Source of the DNA: Microcaldota archaeon
GTDB taxonomy: Archaea > Micrarchaeota > Micrarchaeia > Micrarchaeales > CABMGC01
Reading direction: 5' to 3'
Length of the DNA stretch: 64,000 nucleotides
Assembly (NCBI GenBank): GCA_021818995.1
Contig: JAKASP010000001.1
Location: 1-64,000 of the forward strand
A program made the translations under genes and the position numbers. Shown in pieces: positions 23,295 through 35,042 of this stretch. The notes beneath the pieces are model-generated. The model was not told the origin of the DNA and made no database searches. It saw only the letters and a list, made by a program, of their open reading frames with translations. Numbering within the stretch: position 1 is the stretch's first letter; each line of letters opens with the position of its first letter.

Positions 23295-23666
23295 TTAGAA
23301 GAATTCGAGGCCTTTGAATTGATTAAAATCTTTGTGGTTGTTCGTGAGTAATTTGCAATGGTTGTTTATGGCCACTGCGGCAATCATAGAATCTAATCTC
23401 AACTTTGCATCACTCTTTTCTTCAATTTCAGCTTCTAGCCTTGATGAAAGTATAGCATCAGTCTTGGTATACTCGAGCACAGGGATGAGCAATGATTTGT
23501 CTACTAATTCCGCACGCTTGATGTAACCATAAAGTATTTCATGGAGATTTACAGCAGACGTACAAAACCGTTCGCCGCTAGCCATAACCTTTTTTGAAGC
23601 TTTGTCTCCTAAGTCTGAATGCTTGTCAAGTATCTCAATAAGCATGTCGGTGTCTATAAGTATCAT
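23295..23666 (-). CDS. vapC: PIN-domain toxin (VapC-like)
   Basis: MILIDTDMLIEIL; LRLDSMIAAVAINNHCKLLTNNHKDF. Confidence 0.85.
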   Translation of the reverse strand: MILIDTDMLIEILDKHSDLGDKASKKVMASGERFCTSAVNLHEILYGYIKRAELVDKSLLIPVLEYTKTDAILSSRLEAEIEEKSDAKLRLDSMIAAVAINNHCKLLTNNHKDFNQFKGLEFF

Positions 23667-23672
23667 TTTGGA

Positions 23673-23879
23673 TCACCTTCCTCCTCTTTTTGCGCGGATT
23701 TCAGACAACAGTTTCTCTTTATCCTTCCAAACCACTGAACCGCGCATGCGTTTCATAAGTAGCACAGGAGACGCCGTTTCTAGCAACCTGTCAAGGAGAT
23801 CGCTGAAACTCTCTTTTCCTACTTTTGCCTTTACCAGTTTTTCGTACACGCCGGTCTTAATAGTTATTGTTTTCACCAC
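23673..23879 (-). CDS. vapB: VapB-like antitoxin
   Basis: ITIKTGVYEKLVKAKVGKESFSDLLDRLLE; directly upstream of vapC. Confidence 0.8.
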   Translation of the reverse strand: MVKTITIKTGVYEKLVKAKVGKESFSDLLDRLLETASPVLLMKRMRGSVVWKDKEKLLSEIRAKRGGR

Positions 23880-23905: not shown

Positions 23906-23952
23906 TGATATTTATACCTTTCCTTAGCTGCTTCTTATTACTCTGGAAAAGC

Positions 23953-23960
23953 TTATATAC
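23953..23960 (+). promoter_or_regulatory. TATA box of the transfer-like operon
   Basis: aaaagcTTATATACttttac ~40 nt upstream of the ATG at 23999; GAGGT near 23987-23991. Confidence 0.5.
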
Positions 23961-23998
23961 TTTTACTTAAATAAATGATTAGCTATTGAGGTAAATAA

Positions 23999-24376
23999 AT
24001 GAGGATTAAGAGTTATGCGTTATTGTTTCTGAAGTTCGTTAAAAGATATGCGAAAGTGATGTGGTTATTGTTAGCGTTATTTCCAAGCAAATCCTATGCC
24101 GCAGTTTTCTCACTTGATATAGTAAGCACGCTTACGGGCATCCAAAGCGTATTGGCTCACTTAGGTCCTGTGCTTAGCGCGGTTCTTTTCATAGTTGCGG
24201 GAATCTTCTACGCTATAGGCCAGCTGTTTCCGGCAACGAAGAGGGCAAACTTCCATGCGACTGCCATCGACATACTTGTAGGCGCTATAATCGTCGCTGT
24301 GCTCTCCGTGGCTTCCAACGGCCTTGCGCTTGCTTCGACACATCTTCTCACTAACATAACCAACTCCTCGGTGTAG
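23999..24376 (+). CDS. VirB2/CedA1-like small membrane pilin subunit (putative)
   Basis: Signal-like N-terminus, two hydrophobic helices joined by a short basic loop (LSAVLFIVAGIFYAIGQLFPATKRANFHATAIDILVGAIIVAVLSVA). Confidence 0.5.
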   Translation: MRIKSYALLFLKFVKRYAKVMWLLLALFPSKSYAAVFSLDIVSTLTGIQSVLAHLGPVLSAVLFIVAGIFYAIGQLFPATKRANFHATAIDILVGAIIVAVLSVASNGLALASTHLLTNITNSSV

Positions 24377-24379
24377 CAG

Positions 24380-25381
24380 ATGCAGATTGTTCCGTTCGGG
24401 GCATACGGCCTAAACATATCAATACTGCTGGTCAGCATCATGCTAGCATTAGGCGGAATGCTGCTCGGGGCAGGCTACGCTCTCGAAGACAAGAAGCTAA
24501 AGGAGCTCGGCAGGAACGAAGTGATGCAGTCGCTGATAAACGGCGCGCTTGTAGGCGGCTTTCTTCTACTGTTCGTAAACGGAGGTGTTGTTGGCTCGTT
24601 TGTCAACTCCCTGGTGCTTTCAAACGGCACAAGCACAAGCTGCAGCTCCTTCCTTCAGTACAATGCCGCAATCTGCTTCGCTTACAACTATCTTGTGGGA
24701 CCGAACCAGTATTACTACATGGGCGCTTACCATTCCTCAATTCTTAGCACCGTGTCGATAGTAATTGCGGGCCTTGTCTCGCTTTATGCGGTGCTGGGGC
24801 TCTTCAAACTCTTTCTGAGCCCTGTGCTTGCGCAGATGCAGGGCGCAGTGCAGGTGCTTGGAACAGCGGCCGTAAGCGCAACCGTGCAGGCATCTATCCT
24901 GGCTTTCATATCTGTGAGCGCTTTGACAGTTATTCTGCCTGCGGGGCTGGTACTTAGGACGTTTTACCCAACGAGGAAGACCGGCAGTTTTCTGATAGCT
25001 CTGACTATCGGCCTCTACATCGTGCTCCCGCTCACCTATCTGATGAACGCTACGATAGCCAGCCAGTACTCGCTCGTGTCGAACCAGACAGGCCTCACAA
25101 CGCTCTCGCTCAATCTCGGCAGCATAAAAAGCACGGCGCTGTCATATGTGAACACCGCAACGAACAACACAGGAATTGTGCCAGATCTGGCAAACATCGG
25201 AAGCCAGATTGCGGTGCAGATGTCGAACCTGATGGGCTATCTATTCGACGCCATGGCCTACTTCATAGTCTACACATTCATACTCCCTACTTTCAGCCTG
25301 ATGCTTACCACAATCTCGGTAAAGGAGCTCTCCTCGCTGCTCGGGTCCGAGAGCTTCTTCGGCAAGTTCAGCCTTCTGTGA
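24380..25381 (+). CDS. polytopic membrane protein, VirB6/TrbL/CedA-like (putative)
   Basis: Multi-TM 333 aa protein following the VirB2-like gene. Confidence 0.5.
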   Translation: MQIVPFGAYGLNISILLVSIMLALGGMLLGAGYALEDKKLKELGRNEVMQSLINGALVGGFLLLFVNGGVVGSFVNSLVLSNGTSTSCSSFLQYNAAICFAYNYLVGPNQYYYMGAYHSSILSTVSIVIAGLVSLYAVLGLFKLFLSPVLAQMQGAVQVLGTAAVSATVQASILAFISVSALTVILPAGLVLRTFYPTRKTGSFLIALTIGLYIVLPLTYLMNATIASQYSLVSNQTGLTTLSLNLGSIKSTALSYVNTATNNTGIVPDLANIGSQIAVQMSNLMGYLFDAMAYFIVYTFILPTFSLMLTTISVKELSSLLGSESFFGKFSLL

Positions 25382-25385
25382 TCAT

Positions 25386-26117
25386 ATGCTTCAATTCGAA
25401 AACGGTAACAGGCTTTATTCCTACGCCTTCTATGCGCTTGCGGCCGGCGTGTTTGTGTCCAGTCTTGTCGCGCAGAACGGATATCTTGCAACTTTGAGCG
25501 CGGTGCTGCTGTTTGCCTCGGCCGCATACTTCAGCTCTGGGCACATAGTCAACAACATGCTCCTGAAGCGCGGAGTGGTCGTGGAGGTCTGCAACGGCTA
25601 CAGGTTGAGCGAAGGCCTGGCTTCCGCGGTGAAACAGATAGGCAGCGAGTATTTCGCGGTATCGTGCGTGCTACTCAAGAACGCGCCTACCGAACGCAAC
25701 GGCGAGCAGATAACCTCGCTTGTCTACAATGCGAACTTCCCGTTCGAATTCAGCATCGGGCTGAAGAGCGTCGACCAGGGCAGGCTTCTCGACTCGCTCG
25801 AGGAGAGGAGGAGGATGAAGGAGATAGAGATTGCGAGGAGCGACCCGAAGAAATATGACAAAGTGAACGGCCTCAGGAGAGAGCTGGCCCTTATGGAGAG
25901 CGAGATACGAAGCATAAGGGGCGGAAGGTTGCTTGCGACGTCTACGAAACTGAAGACCTTCGCGAAGTCTACAAGCGAGTTCGAAGCTTCTAGGGAAGCC
26001 GCGAGAAACGCCGAACAGATAGCTAATTCGTTTGCATCGGCTCTGGGTTTCGAGCACGAAATCCTCAAGGGCGAAAGGCTGCTTGAAGAGTTGGAAATTG
26101 AGCGTGAGGTCGCATGA
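25386..26117 (+). CDS. two-TM protein with soluble domain, VirB3/VirB4-N-terminal-like (putative)
   Basis: Two N-terminal TMs then FEFSIGLKSVDQGRLLDSLEERRRMKEIEIA... helical region; directly precedes the VirB4/HerA-like ATPase. Confidence 0.4.
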   Translation: MLQFENGNRLYSYAFYALAAGVFVSSLVAQNGYLATLSAVLLFASAAYFSSGHIVNNMLLKRGVVVEVCNGYRLSEGLASAVKQIGSEYFAVSCVLLKNAPTERNGEQITSLVYNANFPFEFSIGLKSVDQGRLLDSLEERRRMKEIEIARSDPKKYDKVNGLRRELALMESEIRSIRGGRLLATSTKLKTFAKSTSEFEASREAARNAEQIANSFASALGFEHEILKGERLLEELEIEREVA

Positions 26118-27226
26118 GAACTACAACTTTTGCAGGAGTGGATTCTGTGTCAGACCTTATCCAGTTCCCGGACCTCAGCACACAGGATCTCGAGCTCGTC
26201 TTTTCCGGAGCAGCGAAGGGCGTTCTGGTCGGCAGGATGCACAACCTTCCCTATTTCCTTGACTTCGAGAATGCAATCAATCCGCACATCTTCGTGTGCG
26301 GCATAACCGGAAGCGGAAAAACCTACCTGATGAAGAACCTGATGCTTAAGTTGAACAAAATCCTAGGCTCGAAGGTACTGCTTCTGGATTTTACAGGGGA
26401 GTATGCTGAGTTCGTAGAGCTGGCTGGCGAATCGCAGGTGGATGCTGCCGTTTTTGAGGAACAATTGGGTCGGGGAGCGGCAGGCATTACCTACATAAAT
26501 CTGAAGAGGTGTGGCAGCGAGAAGGCGAGAGTGACTGCGGCTGAGGAGATTCTCGGGCGCTTGTCTGAGAAGATGAGGGCCGGGGACACGAGAGGTGACC
26601 GCGTCTTCGTCATGCTCGACGAGGCATGGAAGCTGCTGGGTACAAGCAAGGCGCTCCAGATGCTGCTGAGGGAAGGCAGAAAGTACGGTTACGGGCTAAT
26701 CTTCTCGTCGCAGCTGATAGAAGATATAGACATCGCCATGCTCTCAAATGCTGCCACGCTTTTTGTCTTCAGGCTGCAGAACAAGCAGGGCCTCATCAAG
26801 CTCGCGAGCAACTACGGACTCAGCCTAAAGCGTGTTGAAATTATACAGAAGCTGGGGGTGGGCAGCTGTGTGGCTATGCAGATGCGGACTTCAGGAAAGA
26901 GGGACTTCTGCGTAATAGAACGAGTGCACGGAATGGAGATAGATGAGGTTGTCAGGTTTAGAGTCGGTGTTGAGATGCAGATGGAAATAACGAAGAAAAA
27001 ATTCGAGGAAGTGATGGATAGCGTATGTGGGAGAGAGATTGTGACCATTGCGCTGGGTGTGGCCGAACGGAACGGCTACATAGACCTCTCCGCCCTGATA
27101 GAGCTTCTTATGGAAAACAGAGTGCCGAGAAGGAAGACGCTGTCCGCGCTGCGCAAACTCGGAATAGACGAGGGAACGATAGCGGATTCGTTCGCGGTTG
27201 CGGTATCGTCGATGGCGAGTAAATGA
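26114..27226 (+). CDS. VirB4/HerA-superfamily ATPase
   Basis: Walker A CGITGSGKTYLMKNLML; Walker B RVFVMLDEAWKLLG; LIFSSQLIEDIDIAMLSNAATLFVFRLQN. Confidence 0.85.
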   Translation: MRTTTFAGVDSVSDLIQFPDLSTQDLELVFSGAAKGVLVGRMHNLPYFLDFENAINPHIFVCGITGSGKTYLMKNLMLKLNKILGSKVLLLDFTGEYAEFVELAGESQVDAAVFEEQLGRGAAGITYINLKRCGSEKARVTAAEEILGRLSEKMRAGDTRGDRVFVMLDEAWKLLGTSKALQMLLREGRKYGYGLIFSSQLIEDIDIAMLSNAATLFVFRLQNKQGLIKLASNYGLSLKRVEIIQKLGVGSCVAMQMRTSGKRDFCVIERVHGMEIDEVVRFRVGVEMQMEITKKKFEEVMDSVCGREIVTIALGVAERNGYIDLSALIELLMENRVPRRKTLSALRKLGIDEGTIADSFAVAVSSMASK

Positions 27227-27906
27227 GAAAGAAGGAGGTTTCGGTAGGAGAGGGATATCTCTTCAGCCGAATCTGCGTGGACGCAGGACTTAAATCAAAA
27301 ACCTCGAAAGTGAAAGACGCGCTAGAGGCTTATCACGGGATGCAGCTCATTGAAGAGGGGACTTCGCTCAAGTACTTGCTGAAAGGAAGCGAAGCAGACG
27401 ATCACTTCTATGGGCTAGAGCTGGCAAGAGACCTGATTGCAATCACGATCTATTCAAAACAGACGCCTTCTTCATTCATGCAGGAGGCCATGCTCAGGCT
27501 GCTAGGGATTGTGCAGACCCTTTCCGATGACTATGAAGTGAAAGTTTCATCTCTGTATCCGTACTTGATAATGACCATTGCGGCGCAGCAGTTGAACGCG
27601 ATTGCTCATGTGGAAAGAAAGGCAGATAACACTCTTGCAGACTTGATCCTTTCGAAGAGGCTCATAACCCTGATGCGCGAGAACGAGCACAATCGCGATA
27701 AACTGACCAAAAACCTCGAGAAATTCAGGAGGGTGGTGTTGAAGGCAGCATCGCTTTATAGTGCATCGGGAATGGATGTGGAGGAGATTGCGGCCGAGTT
27801 GGGGATAAGCAATAAGGAAGTAATCGACTCGTTGGACATGGCGGGCTCTTTCGGACAGAGAATCGTGCGCGCAGGAAAGGATATTTTTAGCGTGGTGAAG
27901 ATTTGA
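27223..27906 (+). CDS. hypothetical protein with C-terminal HTH-like segment
   Basis: Overlaps the ATPase stop; SASGMDVEEIAAELGISNKEVIDSLDM. Confidence 0.5.
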   Translation: MRKKEVSVGEGYLFSRICVDAGLKSKTSKVKDALEAYHGMQLIEEGTSLKYLLKGSEADDHFYGLELARDLIAITIYSKQTPSSFMQEAMLRLLGIVQTLSDDYEVKVSSLYPYLIMTIAAQQLNAIAHVERKADNTLADLILSKRLITLMRENEHNRDKLTKNLEKFRRVVLKAASLYSASGMDVEEIAAELGISNKEVIDSLDMAGSFGQRIVRAGKDIFSVVKI

Positions 27907-28490
27907 CAAGCATAGTCGTTGAGTATGTAATCCAAATTATGCCGATATTCGCGGGCGCTGCATTCGTTCTGCTGATTAGGCTCATGGCAACGAAGGAGGA
28001 CATGCTTGTGATCAGGAGCGCGGCGCATGCATCGACAAAGAGTTTGCATGCAGATACGGGATTTGACACTCATGGTTTCGAATTGCCTGTGCCACTTTCC
28101 GAGCTAGGAGACTCAGAGTATATGCAGAAAGCATTCGTTGCGATGAATGCCCTGCAAGGCGACAAGCTGCGCGCTTGGAGAGGATACGTCGGCACATCTG
28201 AGCGGATGAGAGACAGCGTATTCGAGAGGCTGGCGTACGATTCGCTTGTTGTAAACGGAAATGTTCCGAGAAGCAGATCGGCGCACAGTATCAGGAAATA
28301 TGCTGCGGAAAAACTGGGTTTCATTGATTTGGATTCACTTCAGAGCGCAATGCGGCACAGTCACGCCAGGCTGCGCGTCTATGCGCCCGATAAGAGAGAG
28401 TTGCTGGCCCGCATCATCTTGTTCGGAGCCGATTCTGGCCTTTTGCTTCATGATTTGGCGGGCTACAGTTTGGAAATCGAGGAGATTTAG
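27903..28490 (+). CDS. single-TM protein of the transfer-like operon
   Basis: N-terminal TM (YVIQIMPIFAGAAFVLLIRLM); TTG start overlapping the previous stop. Confidence 0.5.
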   Translation: MTSIVVEYVIQIMPIFAGAAFVLLIRLMATKEDMLVIRSAAHASTKSLHADTGFDTHGFELPVPLSELGDSEYMQKAFVAMNALQGDKLRAWRGYVGTSERMRDSVFERLAYDSLVVNGNVPRSRSAHSIRKYAAEKLGFIDLDSLQSAMRHSHARLRVYAPDKRELLARIILFGADSGLLLHDLAGYSLEIEEI

Positions 28491-28491
28491 G

Positions 28492-28674
28492 ATGGGCATC
28501 GAGAAACTGCTTGACACCAATGTACTTAAGGCGAGCGCGATTGTTTCTAGCGTTTACATCTCAATTCTTATCGCAGGCTTTCCGTTTTCCCGCAAGAGCG
28601 AGACTGTTGTTAAGCAGGCGGTTGGTTTTGTTACGCTGTTCTTCATTGCGCTTTTCGTTTACTTGGTGGTGTAA
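28492..28674 (+). CDS. 60-aa two-TM protein
   Basis: MGIEKLLDTNVLKASAIVSSVYISILIAGFPFSRKSETVVKQAVGFVTLFFIALFVYLVV; internal ATG of the longer ORF, immediately after the preceding CDS. Confidence 0.5.
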   Translation: MGIEKLLDTNVLKASAIVSSVYISILIAGFPFSRKSETVVKQAVGFVTLFFIALFVYLVV

Positions 28675-28952
28675 TGCGATGGATGCAGAAGATATACAAG
28701 CAAGGCATAATGGAAAATAGGTTTGCGATAGCAGTGTCTGTTTTCGCGAGTCTCGCAATCACCTTTGCGGTGATACTAGAACTGTTCGGCGCCGCTGTTT
28801 ATTGGCCGATTGGCTTGATTGCGGATTTTGCGTTTAGCGCGGCTCTATATCGCACTTGCAAGCCCTACGAGATTAACGCTGGTGTCGGAGAAGTTGCGCT
28901 GCTTATTGCTCTCAATCTTTTCATCTTCTGCACCTGCACATTCGTTGCGTGA
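28674..28952 (+). CDS. small multi-TM membrane protein
   Basis: 92 aa hydrophobic ORF overlapping the previous stop. Confidence 0.5.
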   Translation: MRWMQKIYKQGIMENRFAIAVSVFASLAITFAVILELFGAAVYWPIGLIADFAFSAALYRTCKPYEINAGVGEVALLIALNLFIFCTCTFVA

Positions 28953-30083: not shown

Positions 30084-30989
30084 ATGTACAGAGGATATCC
30101 GAGCGTACAAGAGAACCGAACCCATTTCGAGGTTTTGAATATGAGAGTGAGTGGAAACAGCGTACAGATGCAAGGCTTCGCTTATAGGAAGCTACCAGAA
30201 CCCACAGGCAAGCCTAAGGACTACGTAAAGGAAAGGCTACCACAGATGGCCAAGTGGGAGATAGAGGAGCTAAGGAGCGAGATAAAGGAGCACTACCTGA
30301 GCCGTTTCAAGAGACCGCGCATAGCCAAGTACGGCACGCTCAACAAGGGCTTCGAGGAGCAGGAGCTCAGGGTATTCCTCGCTCACATAGACAACGAGAA
30401 GCATCGACTTTTGTTCGAGTATCAGGCCAATCTCGCCTTGCGGGTAGGTGAAGCTGTAAAAGTAAATATTAAGGATATCAAGCCAGAGAGCAGGGAACTC
30501 ATAGTCTATACCGAGAAGGCGAGGCAGCCCGACAGCCTACGTATTCCTCTCCCGCTATTCAAGGAGACGCTTGACTTCATACACGCACACAGCAGCGAGA
30601 TAGAGCAGCACGAGGGCTATATCTTCTTCAAGGATTCGCGCTACAGCAAGCACGGAGGCCCACATCTTGACCTTAATTATGTGCGAAACATATTCAGAGA
30701 GTACATAGCTGATACTGGGCTCGATGAAACCTACGACGTGAGCGAAGAAAGGAATGGGAGAAGGCCCAGACGCCTACACAGATTGACTACGCACTCTCTA
30801 AGGCATTACGCGATAACCCGCTTTGCGCGGAGCACGAACGGGAACGTGGTGCTTACAGCACACTTCGCGCGGCATAGGAATCCGAGCACTACGAACACCT
30901 ACATCGCGCTTGACAAGAAGGAGCTCTACGACACTATTGACGCGATTAGCGTGAGCGAGATTGCGATGCTTAAGAAAAAAATGAAATAA
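30084..30989 (+). CDS. tyrosine recombinase/integrase
   Basis: ANLALRVGEAVKVNIKDI (Arg box I), THSLRHYAITRFA, HFARHRNPSTTNTYIALDK (H..R...H...Y); start could be the internal ATG at 30141. Confidence 0.85.
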   Translation: MYRGYPSVQENRTHFEVLNMRVSGNSVQMQGFAYRKLPEPTGKPKDYVKERLPQMAKWEIEELRSEIKEHYLSRFKRPRIAKYGTLNKGFEEQELRVFLAHIDNEKHRLLFEYQANLALRVGEAVKVNIKDIKPESRELIVYTEKARQPDSLRIPLPLFKETLDFIHAHSSEIEQHEGYIFFKDSRYSKHGGPHLDLNYVRNIFREYIADTGLDETYDVSEERNGRRPRRLHRLTTHSLRHYAITRFARSTNGNVVLTAHFARHRNPSTTNTYIALDKKELYDTIDAISVSEIAMLKKKMK

Positions 30990-30994
30990 AATCA

Positions 30995-31879
30995 CTAAGA
31001 AAAACCTTTGAAAGAACCATTGTTAAACTCGTTATAAATACGTTCTCCATCGTTATTAAATATAAAAATGCTATGTCTTGCAACCCCATTTGGCGCTTCT
31101 TGACTTGGTGTAGGTTTTTCTTTAAAAACATACGGACTACCTTTCAGAGATTCTTCATATGCTTGTCCGATTTTTTTAACTTTAGAAACATTAGAACCAG
31201 CACCATGAACGGCTATGTATTTTTTATTTTGCTTTATCAAATCAGATATTTTCTCGATGATTTCAGCTTCGCTCGTTTTTTTATGAACAAAAAAGATGCT
31301 TTCATAAGCAGTTATGTCTACTAATATTTTTTCTATGATTTCTTTATCACGTAATCCTATATCATTGATGTAACCTAATGCTTCTGGGATATATCCTGCT
31401 GTGTATAAATTACAAAAATGTCTAACAAAAATATTATCTCTGCCAAGCTCCTCTTTCCTTTGTGCTGCGATATCACGATCTCCTGCTTCGTATAAATCTT
31501 TTATATATTGTGAAGCTTTAATTAGTCCTTTGAATTTAGCACTTAACTCATTGACAAACGGAAATGGAAATTCGTGAGTTTTATTATATTCGGAATAATC
31601 CTTATACTCCTCTTCAAAGTCAGGATATACGAGCTCGGAATTCGAGCCTTTGCTCAATAATTCTTTGATTACCTCAGCGTTAGTTGAGACATTGCCAAAA
31701 TATACGTGGGCGCCTTTTTCTATTATGAAAACATTTGGATTATTCGCATTGATTGCATAATTTTTAAGTTCTTGATTAAGTTCTTCATTTTTAAATCTGA
31801 ATGGTTGTTTTGGGCCAGATTTTATCTTACTGAGAAGAAACTCGGCTGCTTTTAATAGGAAGGCGGTGATCGGGTCCAT
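30995..31879 (-). CDS. hypothetical island cargo protein
   Basis: 294 aa AT-rich ORF; no recognised motif. Confidence 0.5.
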   Translation of the reverse strand: MDPITAFLLKAAEFLLSKIKSGPKQPFRFKNEELNQELKNYAINANNPNVFIIEKGAHVYFGNVSTNAEVIKELLSKGSNSELVYPDFEEEYKDYSEYNKTHEFPFPFVNELSAKFKGLIKASQYIKDLYEAGDRDIAAQRKEELGRDNIFVRHFCNLYTAGYIPEALGYINDIGLRDKEIIEKILVDITAYESIFFVHKKTSEAEIIEKISDLIKQNKKYIAVHGAGSNVSKVKKIGQAYEESLKGSPYVFKEKPTPSQEAPNGVARHSIFIFNNDGERIYNEFNNGSFKGFS

Positions 31880-31884
31880 TAGTT

Positions 31885-32181
31885 CTACCTGCTCGCCAAA
31901 TATTCACTTAGACTATTTAGATTGTTTTTAATGAAAACATGTGGCGAATTCGCAGGTTTAATTATGCCAATTTCTCTGACTTTGATATCGCTACCGCTTG
32001 ATTGAACTCTTATTCCTTCTGGAGATAATACGTATCCTTCAGAATCAATAGTGTACCCTAAAATTTTGACAATCTCTCGAATCTGTGCTCTTTTTGCATA
32101 TATAGTGACGGCTCCTTCTCCCTTTAATTCTTCTGGAGTTAGTTCTTCTATTTCAAAATCAGAAATTTCGGATATAGCCAT
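31885..32181 (-). CDS. hypothetical island cargo protein (98 aa)
   Basis: MAISEISDFEIEELTPEELKGEGAVTIYAKRAQIREIVKILGY...; start at ATG 32181 preferred over 32439. Confidence 0.45.
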   Translation of the reverse strand: MAISEISDFEIEELTPEELKGEGAVTIYAKRAQIREIVKILGYTIDSEGYVLSPEGIRVQSSGSDIKVREIGIIKPANSPHVFIKNNLNSLSEYLASR

Positions 32182-32414
32182 CTTCTTGCCTCTCTCCTCA
32201 AAAACATTAAAACCGATACGCTTAAAGTCCTTCCTTTTTTGTGGCAGTTTGCTTCTTTTCTTAATAGCATTAGTATTTTTGTCATTATAAGCTTTGGCTT
32301 TACGCTTCGGTTTTGCTATCGTTTTTCTCAATGCCTGCTTTCCGAAGGGTTTTTGCTTAAATTTCCTCAAGTGCACTACCTCTAAGAAAGCGGTACAGAA
32401 GAAGACTAACAAGG

Positions 32415-32666
32415 TTGCTGGACACAACCCTGCAAGCATTAGTGAGAATTGATGCGATGCTGAAGCTTAAAAGCAGAAAGGATTCAGAAATATTTTTCTT
32501 GAGTATCTTTCTGTTCTCGCTTTTATATGCCGTATTGATATTATACAATCAAATGTTATTCTTTATCCTTTTGTCTTCTGTAATTATCTCAGTTCTCCTT
32601 TTCGCTAAGCCATTTGATTATGACAAAAATAGAGAAGAAAAACAGAAAGAAAAACCCCCCAACTAA
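32415..32666 (+). CDS. small two-TM protein
   Basis: FFLSIFLFSLLYAVLILYNQMLFFILLSSVIISVLLFA; start uncertain. Confidence 0.35.
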   Translation: MLDTTLQALVRIDAMLKLKSRKDSEIFFLSIFLFSLLYAVLILYNQMLFFILLSSVIISVLLFAKPFDYDKNREEKQKEKPPN

Positions 32667-33224
32667 ATGTCGATAGTTATTCATATCGAGTATAAGTCCT
32701 CCGATAAGACCTGCAATTAATACAGGAATCCAGATAAATTGCTTCTGAAAAAGTTTTTGTTTATTTCGGTACGCATCTGGTAACATAATTATGAGAATGA
32801 TGACCATTAACGAAAAAGTAATTATCGAAGTGCCTGTTGCAGGATAACCTTCGTAATACCAAGTCACTATGCCTGCCAATAAAGTTGCAATTATGCTATT
32901 TAGGAAAACCCATTTGCTCGCTAAGAATTGCCTAAAATTTCGAGATATACTGCGATAAAAATCATAGAGAAAAAGCAAAAGCATAGGTAAAAAGAAAGTG
33001 ACAAACAGACCTTCGGCGACGTTAGGCATAGTACGTATTTCTTCGCCATTAAACGCCGACGTTATCAGACAAATGCTCTTTACAAAATTTGTATTGTTGA
33101 GCCCATTTATGCAATCTATCTGAGTAAAAGTCATAAGGAGGAGTACGACAAAATATGCAACCATAAAGATGAATGGCATTTTCATCATTGGAGAAGTTAT
33201 ATGATAGAGTTCCCGCAAGTTCAT
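32589..33224 (-). CDS. multi-TM island membrane protein
   Basis: MNLRELYHITSPMMKMPFIFMVAYFVVLLLMTF...; the longer ORF to 33401 would overlap the tRNA. Confidence 0.5.
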   Translation of the reverse strand: MNLRELYHITSPMMKMPFIFMVAYFVVLLLMTFTQIDCINGLNNTNFVKSICLITSAFNGEEIRTMPNVAEGLFVTFFLPMLLLFLYDFYRSISRNFRQFLASKWVFLNSIIATLLAGIVTWYYEGYPATGTSIITFSLMVIILIIMLPDAYRNKQKLFQKQFIWIPVLIAGLIGGLILDMNNYRHLVGGFFFLFFFSIFVIIKWLSEKEN

Positions 33225-33356
33225 AGCTGCGTCTGAACCCCACTTCTTTAAATACTCTCCCAGAGAGCTAACAGCAGTTTTCAGCTGCGTTTTATGTCTC
33301 AGAATACCCCTCTTTTTCCAGCACCGAACTCTTACACTATCGACGATAAGTATACG

Positions 33357-33445
33357 TGGGCCCGGAGAGATTTGAACTCTCGATCTCCCGATTTCTGCCA
33401 TTTGGCTATCAGTCGGACGCTCTAACCAAGCTGAGCTACGAGCCC
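33357..33445 (-). tRNA. tRNA-Ile (GAT) with 14-nt intron at 33393-33406
   Basis: Acceptor GGGCTCG/CGGGCCC, anticodon stem TCCGA/TCGGG, loop CTGATA^intron^A, T arm GAGAG-TTCAAAT-CTCTC; CCA not encoded. Confidence 0.92.
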
Positions 33446-33482: not shown

Positions 33483-35042
33483 CTATCCCCACAGCAGGTT
33501 GTAGGAGAAGCACTGCGCAGCGAGAATGTTGCGCTGTACAGTCTGGTTGCTTATCGCACGCGTGGGCAGGTTGTAGAACCAGGAATAGAACCGATCGTAG
33601 CTCTGGCACGAAGGCTGGTTCGCGGGCAGATCGGCCAGGGGGATTATCATGTACGTGCCCGCGATCATCTCGGACGAGTTCGATGCCTGGAGCTCGAGGT
33701 TCGTGTTGTACACAAGGAACTCTGTGTTGTTCGAGATCAGGTCGAAGACCTGCTCCTCCGCCCCCTTTGAGTTGAAGAACCGCATCTGACCGAGGACAGT
33801 GTTGTTGCTAGAGAGCCCGCTCAGCACGTTGCTGTTCGGCGAGCTGAGGAAGAGCAGCATTGCGTTCGTCACGTTTATAGTGCGGTTGGTCAGGGTTATG
33901 AAGACGCTGGTGCCGTTGGGGTTGGAGATTGCGGCGTAGACGAACTTGCCCCTGCTCAGCGCCCCCTGCACCGCGCTTACCGCGAGAGGGTTGCTGTAAT
34001 TGAAAATCAGCCTGTTCTGCAGCGCAAGCGGCGAGATCGCCAGCGCAGTGGAGTAGTTGAGCGTCATGAGCACGTATGCTATACTTAGCGCGAATGCCAG
34101 CGCGATCGGCCACAGCGGCGCGTTTGTTGCCCGTTCCTTCTTCCTGTGCTTTGCCCGTTTCGCGATCTCGAGTCCGAAGAATTTCGACGTGAGGATCATT
34201 GCGATTATCGCGACGTAGAAGAGTATCACGCCGATGAAGTTGTGGATCAGGAGTGCGGTTGCGTTGGGGCCGTTGTTCAGCCAGAAGACAGATATACCGA
34301 GCATCCTCGCGATGTTGAGCACGAAGAGCAAGGCTATGCCTGCCGCAACCCAGATCGCCTTATCCTTAATCCTGCCCTCGTAGAAGTACGCTACCGGGAT
34401 AAGGAAGAGCGCCAGTGCCACAAATATGCCTATGCTCACGCACGCCTGCCCTATGCCTATGGAGTAGCCGTTGGCGCTTATCGTTATCGGCGCGGAGTAC
34501 TGCACCGCGCTCACGAACGGCTTGAGCATGTTGTAGATAAGCAGAGTGTTGAACTGGGTGAACGCATTGAACTGGAGCAGGAGGGGAAAGAGCACGATTG
34601 GCGATGCGAGGAGCGTGTATGCGATTGCGCCCCTGAACTTCTTCGCGTTGCCGATTCCGAAGAGCAGGCAGACAAGCGAGAAGAGGGCGAGCGGCATGAG
34701 CAGCATGTCTATCCTGAAGCTTGTGAAGAAGACTGTGAAGTAGAGCCTTGAAAGCAGGATAAGCGCCAGGAAGAGGACGAACGCTGACGCGCCAACAATT
34801 GCGCTCTTCCTGTCAACATTCGGCTCCGGCCTGGACTTAAGCGAGAAGAGCAGGAAGAGGGGCAGCATCAGTATCGGGACTATAACGTACGTCGAAGGGT
34901 CCGCGTCGCTCACTGCCGCTGGCGTTATGTACAGGGAGGTCGAGAGCAGGATTATTGTCGCGGCAACGAGGAGCACTCCTGCAATGTTCCTGTCGTATCG
35001 CATCGTATCATCATTGTCCTCAGCCGATATAGACCTCATCAC
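33483..35042 (-). CDS. exosortase/archaeosortase-family membrane protein
   Basis: Polytopic; GIGQACVSIGIF (catalytic Cys region), VLNIARMLGI (Arg), LIHNFIGVILFYVAI (His); large extracellular C-terminal domain. Confidence 0.75.
   Translation of the reverse strand: MMRSISAEDNDDTMRYDRNIAGVLLVAATIILLSTSLYITPAAVSDADPSTYVIVPILMLPLFLLFSLKSRPEPNVDRKSAIVGASAFVLFLALILLSRLYFTVFFTSFRIDMLLMPLALFSLVCLLFGIGNAKKFRGAIAYTLLASPIVLFPLLLQFNAFTQFNTLLIYNMLKPFVSAVQYSAPITISANGYSIGIGQACVSIGIFVALALFLIPVAYFYEGRIKDKAIWVAAGIALLFVLNIARMLGISVFWLNNGPNATALLIHNFIGVILFYVAIIAMILTSKFFGLEIAKRAKHRKKERATNAPLWPIALAFALSIAYVLMTLNYSTALAISPLALQNRLIFNYSNPLAVSAVQGALSRGKFVYAAISNPNGTSVFITLTNRTINVTNAMLLFLSSPNSNVLSGLSSNNTVLGQMRFFNSKGAEEQVFDLISNNTEFLVYNTNLELQASNSSEMIAGTYMIIPLADLPANQPSCQSYDRFYSWFYNLPTRAISNQTVQRNILAAQCFSYNLLWG

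Follow-up and report, generated by a model that had tools for sequence, protein, structure and literature searches.

A conserved Micrarchaeota operon with a divided VirB4 resembles type IV secretion systems and shares an operator with a type IV pilus operon

We identified a conserved operon of 8 genes (g1 to g8) related to type IV secretion systems (T4SSs) at positions 23999-28952 of a 64,000-nt stretch of Micrarchaeota DNA (hereafter, the window), which spans the initial 64 kb of contig 2 in a 485-kb, 63% complete genome. The operon very probably belongs to the T4SSs in the broad sense, with a VirB4-type ATPase (g4) and a VirB4 N-terminal domain (g3) encoded side by side. We consider it probable that the genes encode a chromosomal, relaxase-less, domesticated T4SS-like machine that transfers DNA from cell to cell, much as the crenarchaeal Ced and Ted systems do; the homology to T4SSs is strong, whereas DNA transfer and its direction are inferred. 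Transfer among these ultra-small symbionts, of the kind known from some heat-loving archaea, is suggested by the results but not proven. If DNA is moved, the system would provide a concrete, testable route of gene exchange among Micrarchaeota or with their hosts. The system also exhibits a VirB4 whose docking domain and motor are encoded separately, as well as an operator by which a T4SS and a type IV pilus are linked within one genome.

Gene content and conservation of the operon

Eight open reading frames (ORFs) on the same strand, with neighbors 1-4 nt apart or overlapping by 1-4 nt, were confirmed behind a single TATA box, as an earlier note made from the sequence had described. The transmembrane (TM) helices listed in that note agreed with hydropathy (2 in g1, 6 in g2, 1 in g6, and 2 in g8), with a structure model (2 N-terminal helices in g3), and with relatives (2 in g7). 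The promoter (23945-23959, plus strand), recognized from the sequence and from the layout in relatives, comprises a purine-rich stretch resembling a B recognition element followed by the TATA box (TTATATA) at approximately 23953-23959. The earlier description lacked an operator, which is located downstream of the TATA box and ahead of g1, and a ninth gene (g9), which in this genus lies outside the window.

Among other genomes of the same Micrarchaeota order, g1-g2-g3-g4 occurred in one order and on one strand in 38 of 39 loci, and the operon is therefore real and not a product of chance; the gene order, whose restriction to one genome the earlier note had held out as evidence against its reading, is widely conserved. 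The single exception (L040) retains g4-g8. The g5 gene came next after g4 in 37 loci, and g6, g7, and g8 were recognizable in 31, 17, and 17 of the 39, with unrecognized small membrane ORFs often occupying the g6-g8 position elsewhere. Named Micrarchaeota loci from a separate scan had an identical gene order, the nearest named operon-bearing genomes being Candidatus Micrarchaeota metagenome-assembled genomes (MAGs), and a compact form (81-aa pilin, g2, g3, 478-aa g4, and g5) was identified in other families of the class. The operon is dispensable, because several genomes more than 90% complete lack it (G031, G033, G038, and G044).

Because the flanking genes differ between loci, no plasmid relative of g2 or g4 was found on searching, and pairwise identities among g1-g5 correlate from gene to gene (r 0.59-0.87), the operon fits an inherited chromosomal system. 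That the genes might instead be the conjugation part of a mobile element integrated in the chromosome was considered in view of a tyrosine recombinase gene (30084-30989) lying 1.1 kb downstream of the operon and a low-GC stretch at 31-33 kb of the window. This explanation was rejected as very improbable, since the integrase has a relative at just 1 other compared locus, plasmid relatives of g2 and g4 were not found, and most family genomes retain the operon while its flanks change and its genes diverge in step. Further, relaxases of PF03432, the only relaxase class searched, were identified in none of 59 family genomes. VirD4 was found nowhere in the genus and as 4 weak matches only in the family, so the earlier statement that neither a relaxase nor VirD4 accompanies the operon held.

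The g3 gene (25386-26117, plus strand; 243 aa) encodes the 2 TM helices followed by a putative VirB4 N-terminal domain. Sequence-only searches of PDB and Pfam returned coiled-coil noise, and the informative search was the fold search alone: with the AlphaFold2 model (mean predicted local distance difference test score, pLDDT, 88), Foldseek ranks 1-12 were all R388 TrwK/VirB4 or T4SS inner-membrane-complex entries, the best at E 2.7e-4 and probability 1.00. This corrects the earlier proposal of a VirB3: the protein is not simply VirB3, and it is predicted to be a membrane-anchored VirB4 N-terminal domain.

The g4 gene (26114-27226, plus strand; 370 aa) encodes a VirB4/CedB-like ATPase domain with a Walker A motif (GITGSGKT) at residue 63 and DEAW at residue 169. 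CedB was the top NCBIfam match of the window g4 and matched all 34 g4 relatives scanned (best E 3.4e-32); a VirB4 family also matched all 34, and HerA models scored more weakly. The window g4 reached 51 bits against the CedB equivalog cut-off of 700 bits, far below it. Pfam matches were DUF87, AAA_10, and TrwB. In a profile search of PDB, which is rich in HerA-type chains, HerA entries came first and the VirB4-like 4ag5 matched at 1e-12. The ATPase domain alone leaves the choice between VirB4 and HerA unsettled, and the partner g3 decides it. Since g3 matches the VirB4 N-terminal domain and g4 is a separate ATPase half with no such domain of its own, we conclude from sequence profiles and a predicted fold that one VirB4 is divided between the 2 genes.

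The PDB ranking of g4, together with its matches to HerA entries in PADLOC, would also suit an operon for HerA-type DNA repair or anti-phage defense. We regard this as extremely improbable and rejected it on gene content, as g4 is accompanied by a VirB2-like pilin and a VirB4 N-terminal domain, NurA was identified in none of the 59 family genomes, and the PADLOC defense families matched no operon protein other than g4. A HerA-type ATPase with NurA, which the earlier note had named as evidence against its reading, was not borne out, given the CedB matches and the lack of NurA.

As judged by matches across its family, g1 (23999-24376, plus strand; 125 aa) is a VirB2/TrbC-type pilin. A signal peptide is predicted, probably cleaved at approximately SYA-AVF, and the alignment displays a conserved KR (lysine-arginine) loop with the 2 helices. 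Pfam TrbC matched 20 and T4SS_pilin 16 of 39 g1 family members (best 4.8e-7), in agreement with the VirB2-like assignment of the earlier note; g1 of the window itself scores under the curated cut-off, and its best PDB profile match was TrwL, the VirB2 of R388 (E 0.34). The polytopic g2 (24380-25381, plus strand; 333 aa), in which C88 and C99 are invariant in the alignment, is probably a VirB6/CedA-like channel. Its profile scan gave no relevant family match, and Foldseek with its AlphaFold2 model (pLDDT 79) placed TrwI/VirB6 at ranks 2-3 (probability 0.89 and 0.85). For the VirB6 identity proposed earlier, this is a weak structural likeness, at E > 0.1.

The remaining genes, all on the plus strand, had no convincing family match in profile scans, much as the earlier note had recognized nothing in the last 4 genes. 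The cytosolic g5 protein (27223-27906; 227 aa) has a helical/coiled-coil middle and a C-terminal winged helix, with weak winged-helix-type PDB matches to residues 160-220. A sigma-factor match (E 2e-6) was not upheld, as only this poorly conserved C-terminal part aligns, so the helix-turn-helix protein of the earlier note survives as a winged helix only. The g6 gene (27903-28490; 195 aa) starts with TTG, a start backed by alignment of relatives, and encodes an N-terminal TM helix and a probably cytoplasmic domain; g7 (28492-28674; 60 aa) and g8 (28674-28952; 92 aa) encode small membrane proteins.

A ninth gene, g9, encoding approximately 735 aa with a P-loop of the TrwB/HerA kind, lies directly after the operon in many relatives and aligns with g4 across the ATPase part. 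It sits away from the operon in the window's genus (G001, G002, G004, and G006) and was not found in the window's own genome, which is incomplete. Among family genomes, 38 had both operon and g9, 10 had neither, and 5 and 3 were discordant (agreement 48/56; Fisher p 1.8e-5, with relatedness not corrected for). By sequence and co-occurrence, g9 is a second HerA/TrwB-type ATPase belonging to the system. Another HerA/CedD-type ATPase of 509 aa, with CedD as best NCBIfam match (2.3e-19), was identified in the window's own genome (G000:C2:172031-173560; L161), which lacks NurA.

An operator shared with a type IV pilus operon

A palindrome with the consensus TTTACTTAAGTAAA, often doubled at 19-20 bp, was identified between the TATA box and g1, and this operator, linking g1, g9, and a type IV pilus operon, is new here. 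The window copy, TTTACTTAAATAAA (23962-23975), has 1 mismatch to the consensus; a degenerate second copy, GCTATTGAGGTAAA (23982-23995), lies 20 bp downstream with 5 mismatches, is weak in the window, and overlaps a Shine-Dalgarno-like GAGGT. The TATA-operator layout likewise occurs upstream of g1 in relatives L034-L043. A copy with at most 2 mismatches was present at -70 to +12 relative to g1 in 36 of the 51 orthologous loci, against a background of 0.0008 per locus; 7 matches were found in 729 kb elsewhere and 43 in 10,200 shuffled upstream segments. Paired operators spaced 19-20 bp were present in 20 of the 51 loci. Genome-wide, sites numbered 2 in the window's own 485 kb, 2-6 in the genus, and 2-12 overall, with 1-8 in reversed-pattern controls.

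The operator also precedes g9, including the distant g9 of 4 genomes (G001, G002, G006, and G024), and lies where a type II/IV secretion ATPase gene (T2SSE 1.9e-20) begins, which is closest to archaellum FlaI, TadA, and VirB11 models. This gene is followed by genes for 2 membrane proteins and 2 small pilin-like proteins in a pilus operon (L179; G000:C2:318000-326000) divergent from a winged-helix gene. Matches within -250 to +200 of the predicted ATPase start were identified in 23 of 30 orthologs, with zero other matches in 116 kb of flank, and outside the window's genus they lie mostly at -21 to -44. The type IV pilus, whose orthology to Ups is not established, would by this placement be under common control with the operon, and the 2 are apparently switched on together. 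Two observations count against the overall reading proposed below: inheritance of the pilus ATPase does not strictly follow that of the operon, and in the window's genus the pilus operator overlaps the first predicted ATPase codons (MFYLSK), being upstream in most other genera. Within the overlap, leucine is encoded by TTA and serine by AGT, whereas in long ORFs of the window TTA makes up 2.8% of leucine codons and AGT 3.6% of serine codons; because these rare codons are used there, the DNA of the pilus operator seems to be under constraint in itself.

A 112-aa winged-helix gene adjoins the pilus ATPase in 27 of 30 loci, and in 2 close relatives (L116 and L119) a homolog stands in divergent orientation to g1, and the 77 bp separating the two contain operators. 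By position only, the encoded protein is the best candidate regulator. Separately, a doubled operator with a spacing of 20 lies between small toxin-like and AbrB-like genes on contig 3 of G006 (L184:3640-3673), a possible regulon member.

Comparison with known systems and proposed function

In Sulfolobales, the T4SS-like DNA importer Ced works together with the Ups type IV pili, which bring about cell aggregation; DNA damage induces both systems, exchange requires both, and CedB and CedD jointly cover a VirB4 N-terminal domain (PMC11868833; PMC9905601). We judged DNA exchange to be the most likely function because the Micrarchaeota set repeats this Ced and Ups plan with different wiring. Common to Ced and the system described here are a VirB2-type pilin, a probable VirB6-type channel, a CedB-like ATPase, a second HerA/VirB4-type ATPase, small 2-TM proteins, a type IV pilus under shared control, and the lack of a recognized relaxase or VirD4. 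Unlike in Ced, the core genes here form 1 operon, the VirB4 N-terminal domain and ATPase are separate genes, the pilin has a predicted cleavable signal, the operator is different, NurA is absent, and g5 and g6 are extra. The Micrarchaeota system should not be classed as Ced proper, because the CedA-type homology of g2 is weak (E > 0.1) and import is putative; of the Ced-like importer or other transfer apparatus named in the earlier note, homology upholds the transfer apparatus.

Ted of Thermoproteales (TedA, TedB, and TedC) has the same VirB2/VirB6/VirB4 set, and signal peptidase processes the TedC pilin, a cleavage also predicted for g1. In contrast, the ParA, HerA, and Rad50 genes of Ted loci were not observed in our system, in which VirB4 is split. 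In the R388 T4SS (TrwL/VirB2, TrwI/VirB6, and TrwK/VirB4), the TrwK N-terminal domain has the fold of g3, and TrwL and TrwI are the counterparts indicated for g1 and g2; in contrast, no VirB5, VirB7-VirB11, relaxase, or VirD4 was recognized here, and VirB4 is divided. The relaxase-less T4SS of Patescibacteria is likewise chromosomal and widespread in an ultra-small, host-dependent lineage, but it is of the bacterial FATA class with a VirD4-type protein and separate VirB3 and VirB4, and a split VirB4 is not reported there. The open-access papers that we searched reported no such system for Micrarchaeota or other DPANN. DNA-exchange machines domesticated from conjugation have been described in Crenarchaea, and the papers defining Ced and Ted do not mention DPANN. 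For Mia14, type IV pili have been described along with genomic islands in which conjugative elements are likely (PMC5498576), and nanohaloarchaeal giant proteins with VirB4-type domains have a different arrangement.

In the mechanism we propose, g1 would be exported by Sec, cleaved, and assembled into a thin pilus on the g2 channel, under which g3 would dock g4 as a hexameric motor, g3 and g4 together remaking one VirB4. The g7 and g8 proteins may be small membrane accessories comparable to CedA2, and g9 may correspond to CedD, serving as a second motor or feeding substrate to the machine. The regulator that would bind the doubled TTTACTTAAGTAAA and control the operon, g9, and the type IV pilus operon together may be the conserved winged-helix protein. 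The type IV pilus would keep hold of partner cells, the part that Ups plays for Ced.

Several points weigh against DNA exchange. The results give neither cargo nor direction, and all genomes compared are MAGs. The likeness of g2 to VirB6 is not significant taken alone, at E > 0.1; homology between CedA1 and CedA, the counterparts of the g1-g2 pair, is reported, and profile comparison of g1 with g2 aligned a plausible region without significance. Comparison of the g9 N-terminal domain with the g3 profile gave no match. NurA, proposed to make single-stranded DNA for Ced and Ted, is missing, and with relaxase, VirD4, and NurA all absent, no source of a transferred strand is recognizable. DprA, a marker of bacterial competence, was absent apart from weak matches, a result we consider uninformative.

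The same pilus, channel, and split VirB4 could instead export effectors, delivering protein, or protein with DNA, from the symbiont into its archaeal host. We rank this next after DNA exchange, as a possibility of clearly lower probability. Micrarchaeota are host-dependent (PMC5498576; PMC11329633), the relaxase-less chromosomal T4SSs of ultra-small Patescibacteria are thought to be specialized for non-conjugative roles (PMC12102498), and g9 could serve as an effector-recruiting ATPase. However, CedB is the closest family match, the co-regulated type IV pilus mirrors the pairing known from DNA exchange, and no effector gene was recognized near the operon, though effectors are hard to recognize. 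A device that only builds a pilus for adhesion or biofilm, with no cargo, would account for the VirB2-type pilin and for co-regulation with the type IV pilus operon; it is improbable, as the conserved VirB4-type motor, docking domain, and second ATPase exceed the needs of adhesion.

Further T4SS-like clusters and neighboring genes

A second, expanded T4SS-like cluster was identified 3 kb past the window end, on the minus strand of contig 2 of the same genome (G000, 67221-82342; L053 and L160). It encodes 6 multi-TM proteins, at least 5 of which match the VirB6-like g2 profile, along with 2 g3-like proteins, a 501-aa g4-like ATPase, a g5-like protein, and a VirB2-like pilin. An ATPase match of approximately 500 aa was found in most compared genomes, and the second cluster may be near universal in Micrarchaeota; HerA was rejected as the identity of this ATPase, which in the window's own genome is part of the second cluster. 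Tandem arrays of 4 to 6 VirB6-like genes were identified in other Micrarchaeota (L144, L145, L147, L148, and L150), and in L147 a single cluster contains 2 pilins, 4 g2-like genes, 2 g3-like genes, 1 g4-like gene, and a g5-like gene. Speculatively, a phylum-wide DPANN regulon for DNA exchange might exist, in which one switch would control the type IV pilus and the split-VirB4 T4SS and allow the symbiont to acquire DNA from siblings or from its host. The second cluster of these genomes, with its 6 VirB6-like paralogs, would then be a new architecture.

Within the window, a VapBC toxin-antitoxin pair (23295-23879) lies just 5' of the operon and is beside it in a few relatives too. Positions 30084-33401, comprising the tyrosine recombinase gene and the low-GC stretch, contain genes with no clear family and suggest a small mobile or foreign segment. 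Further, an exosortase/archaeosortase-like protein is encoded at 33483-35042.

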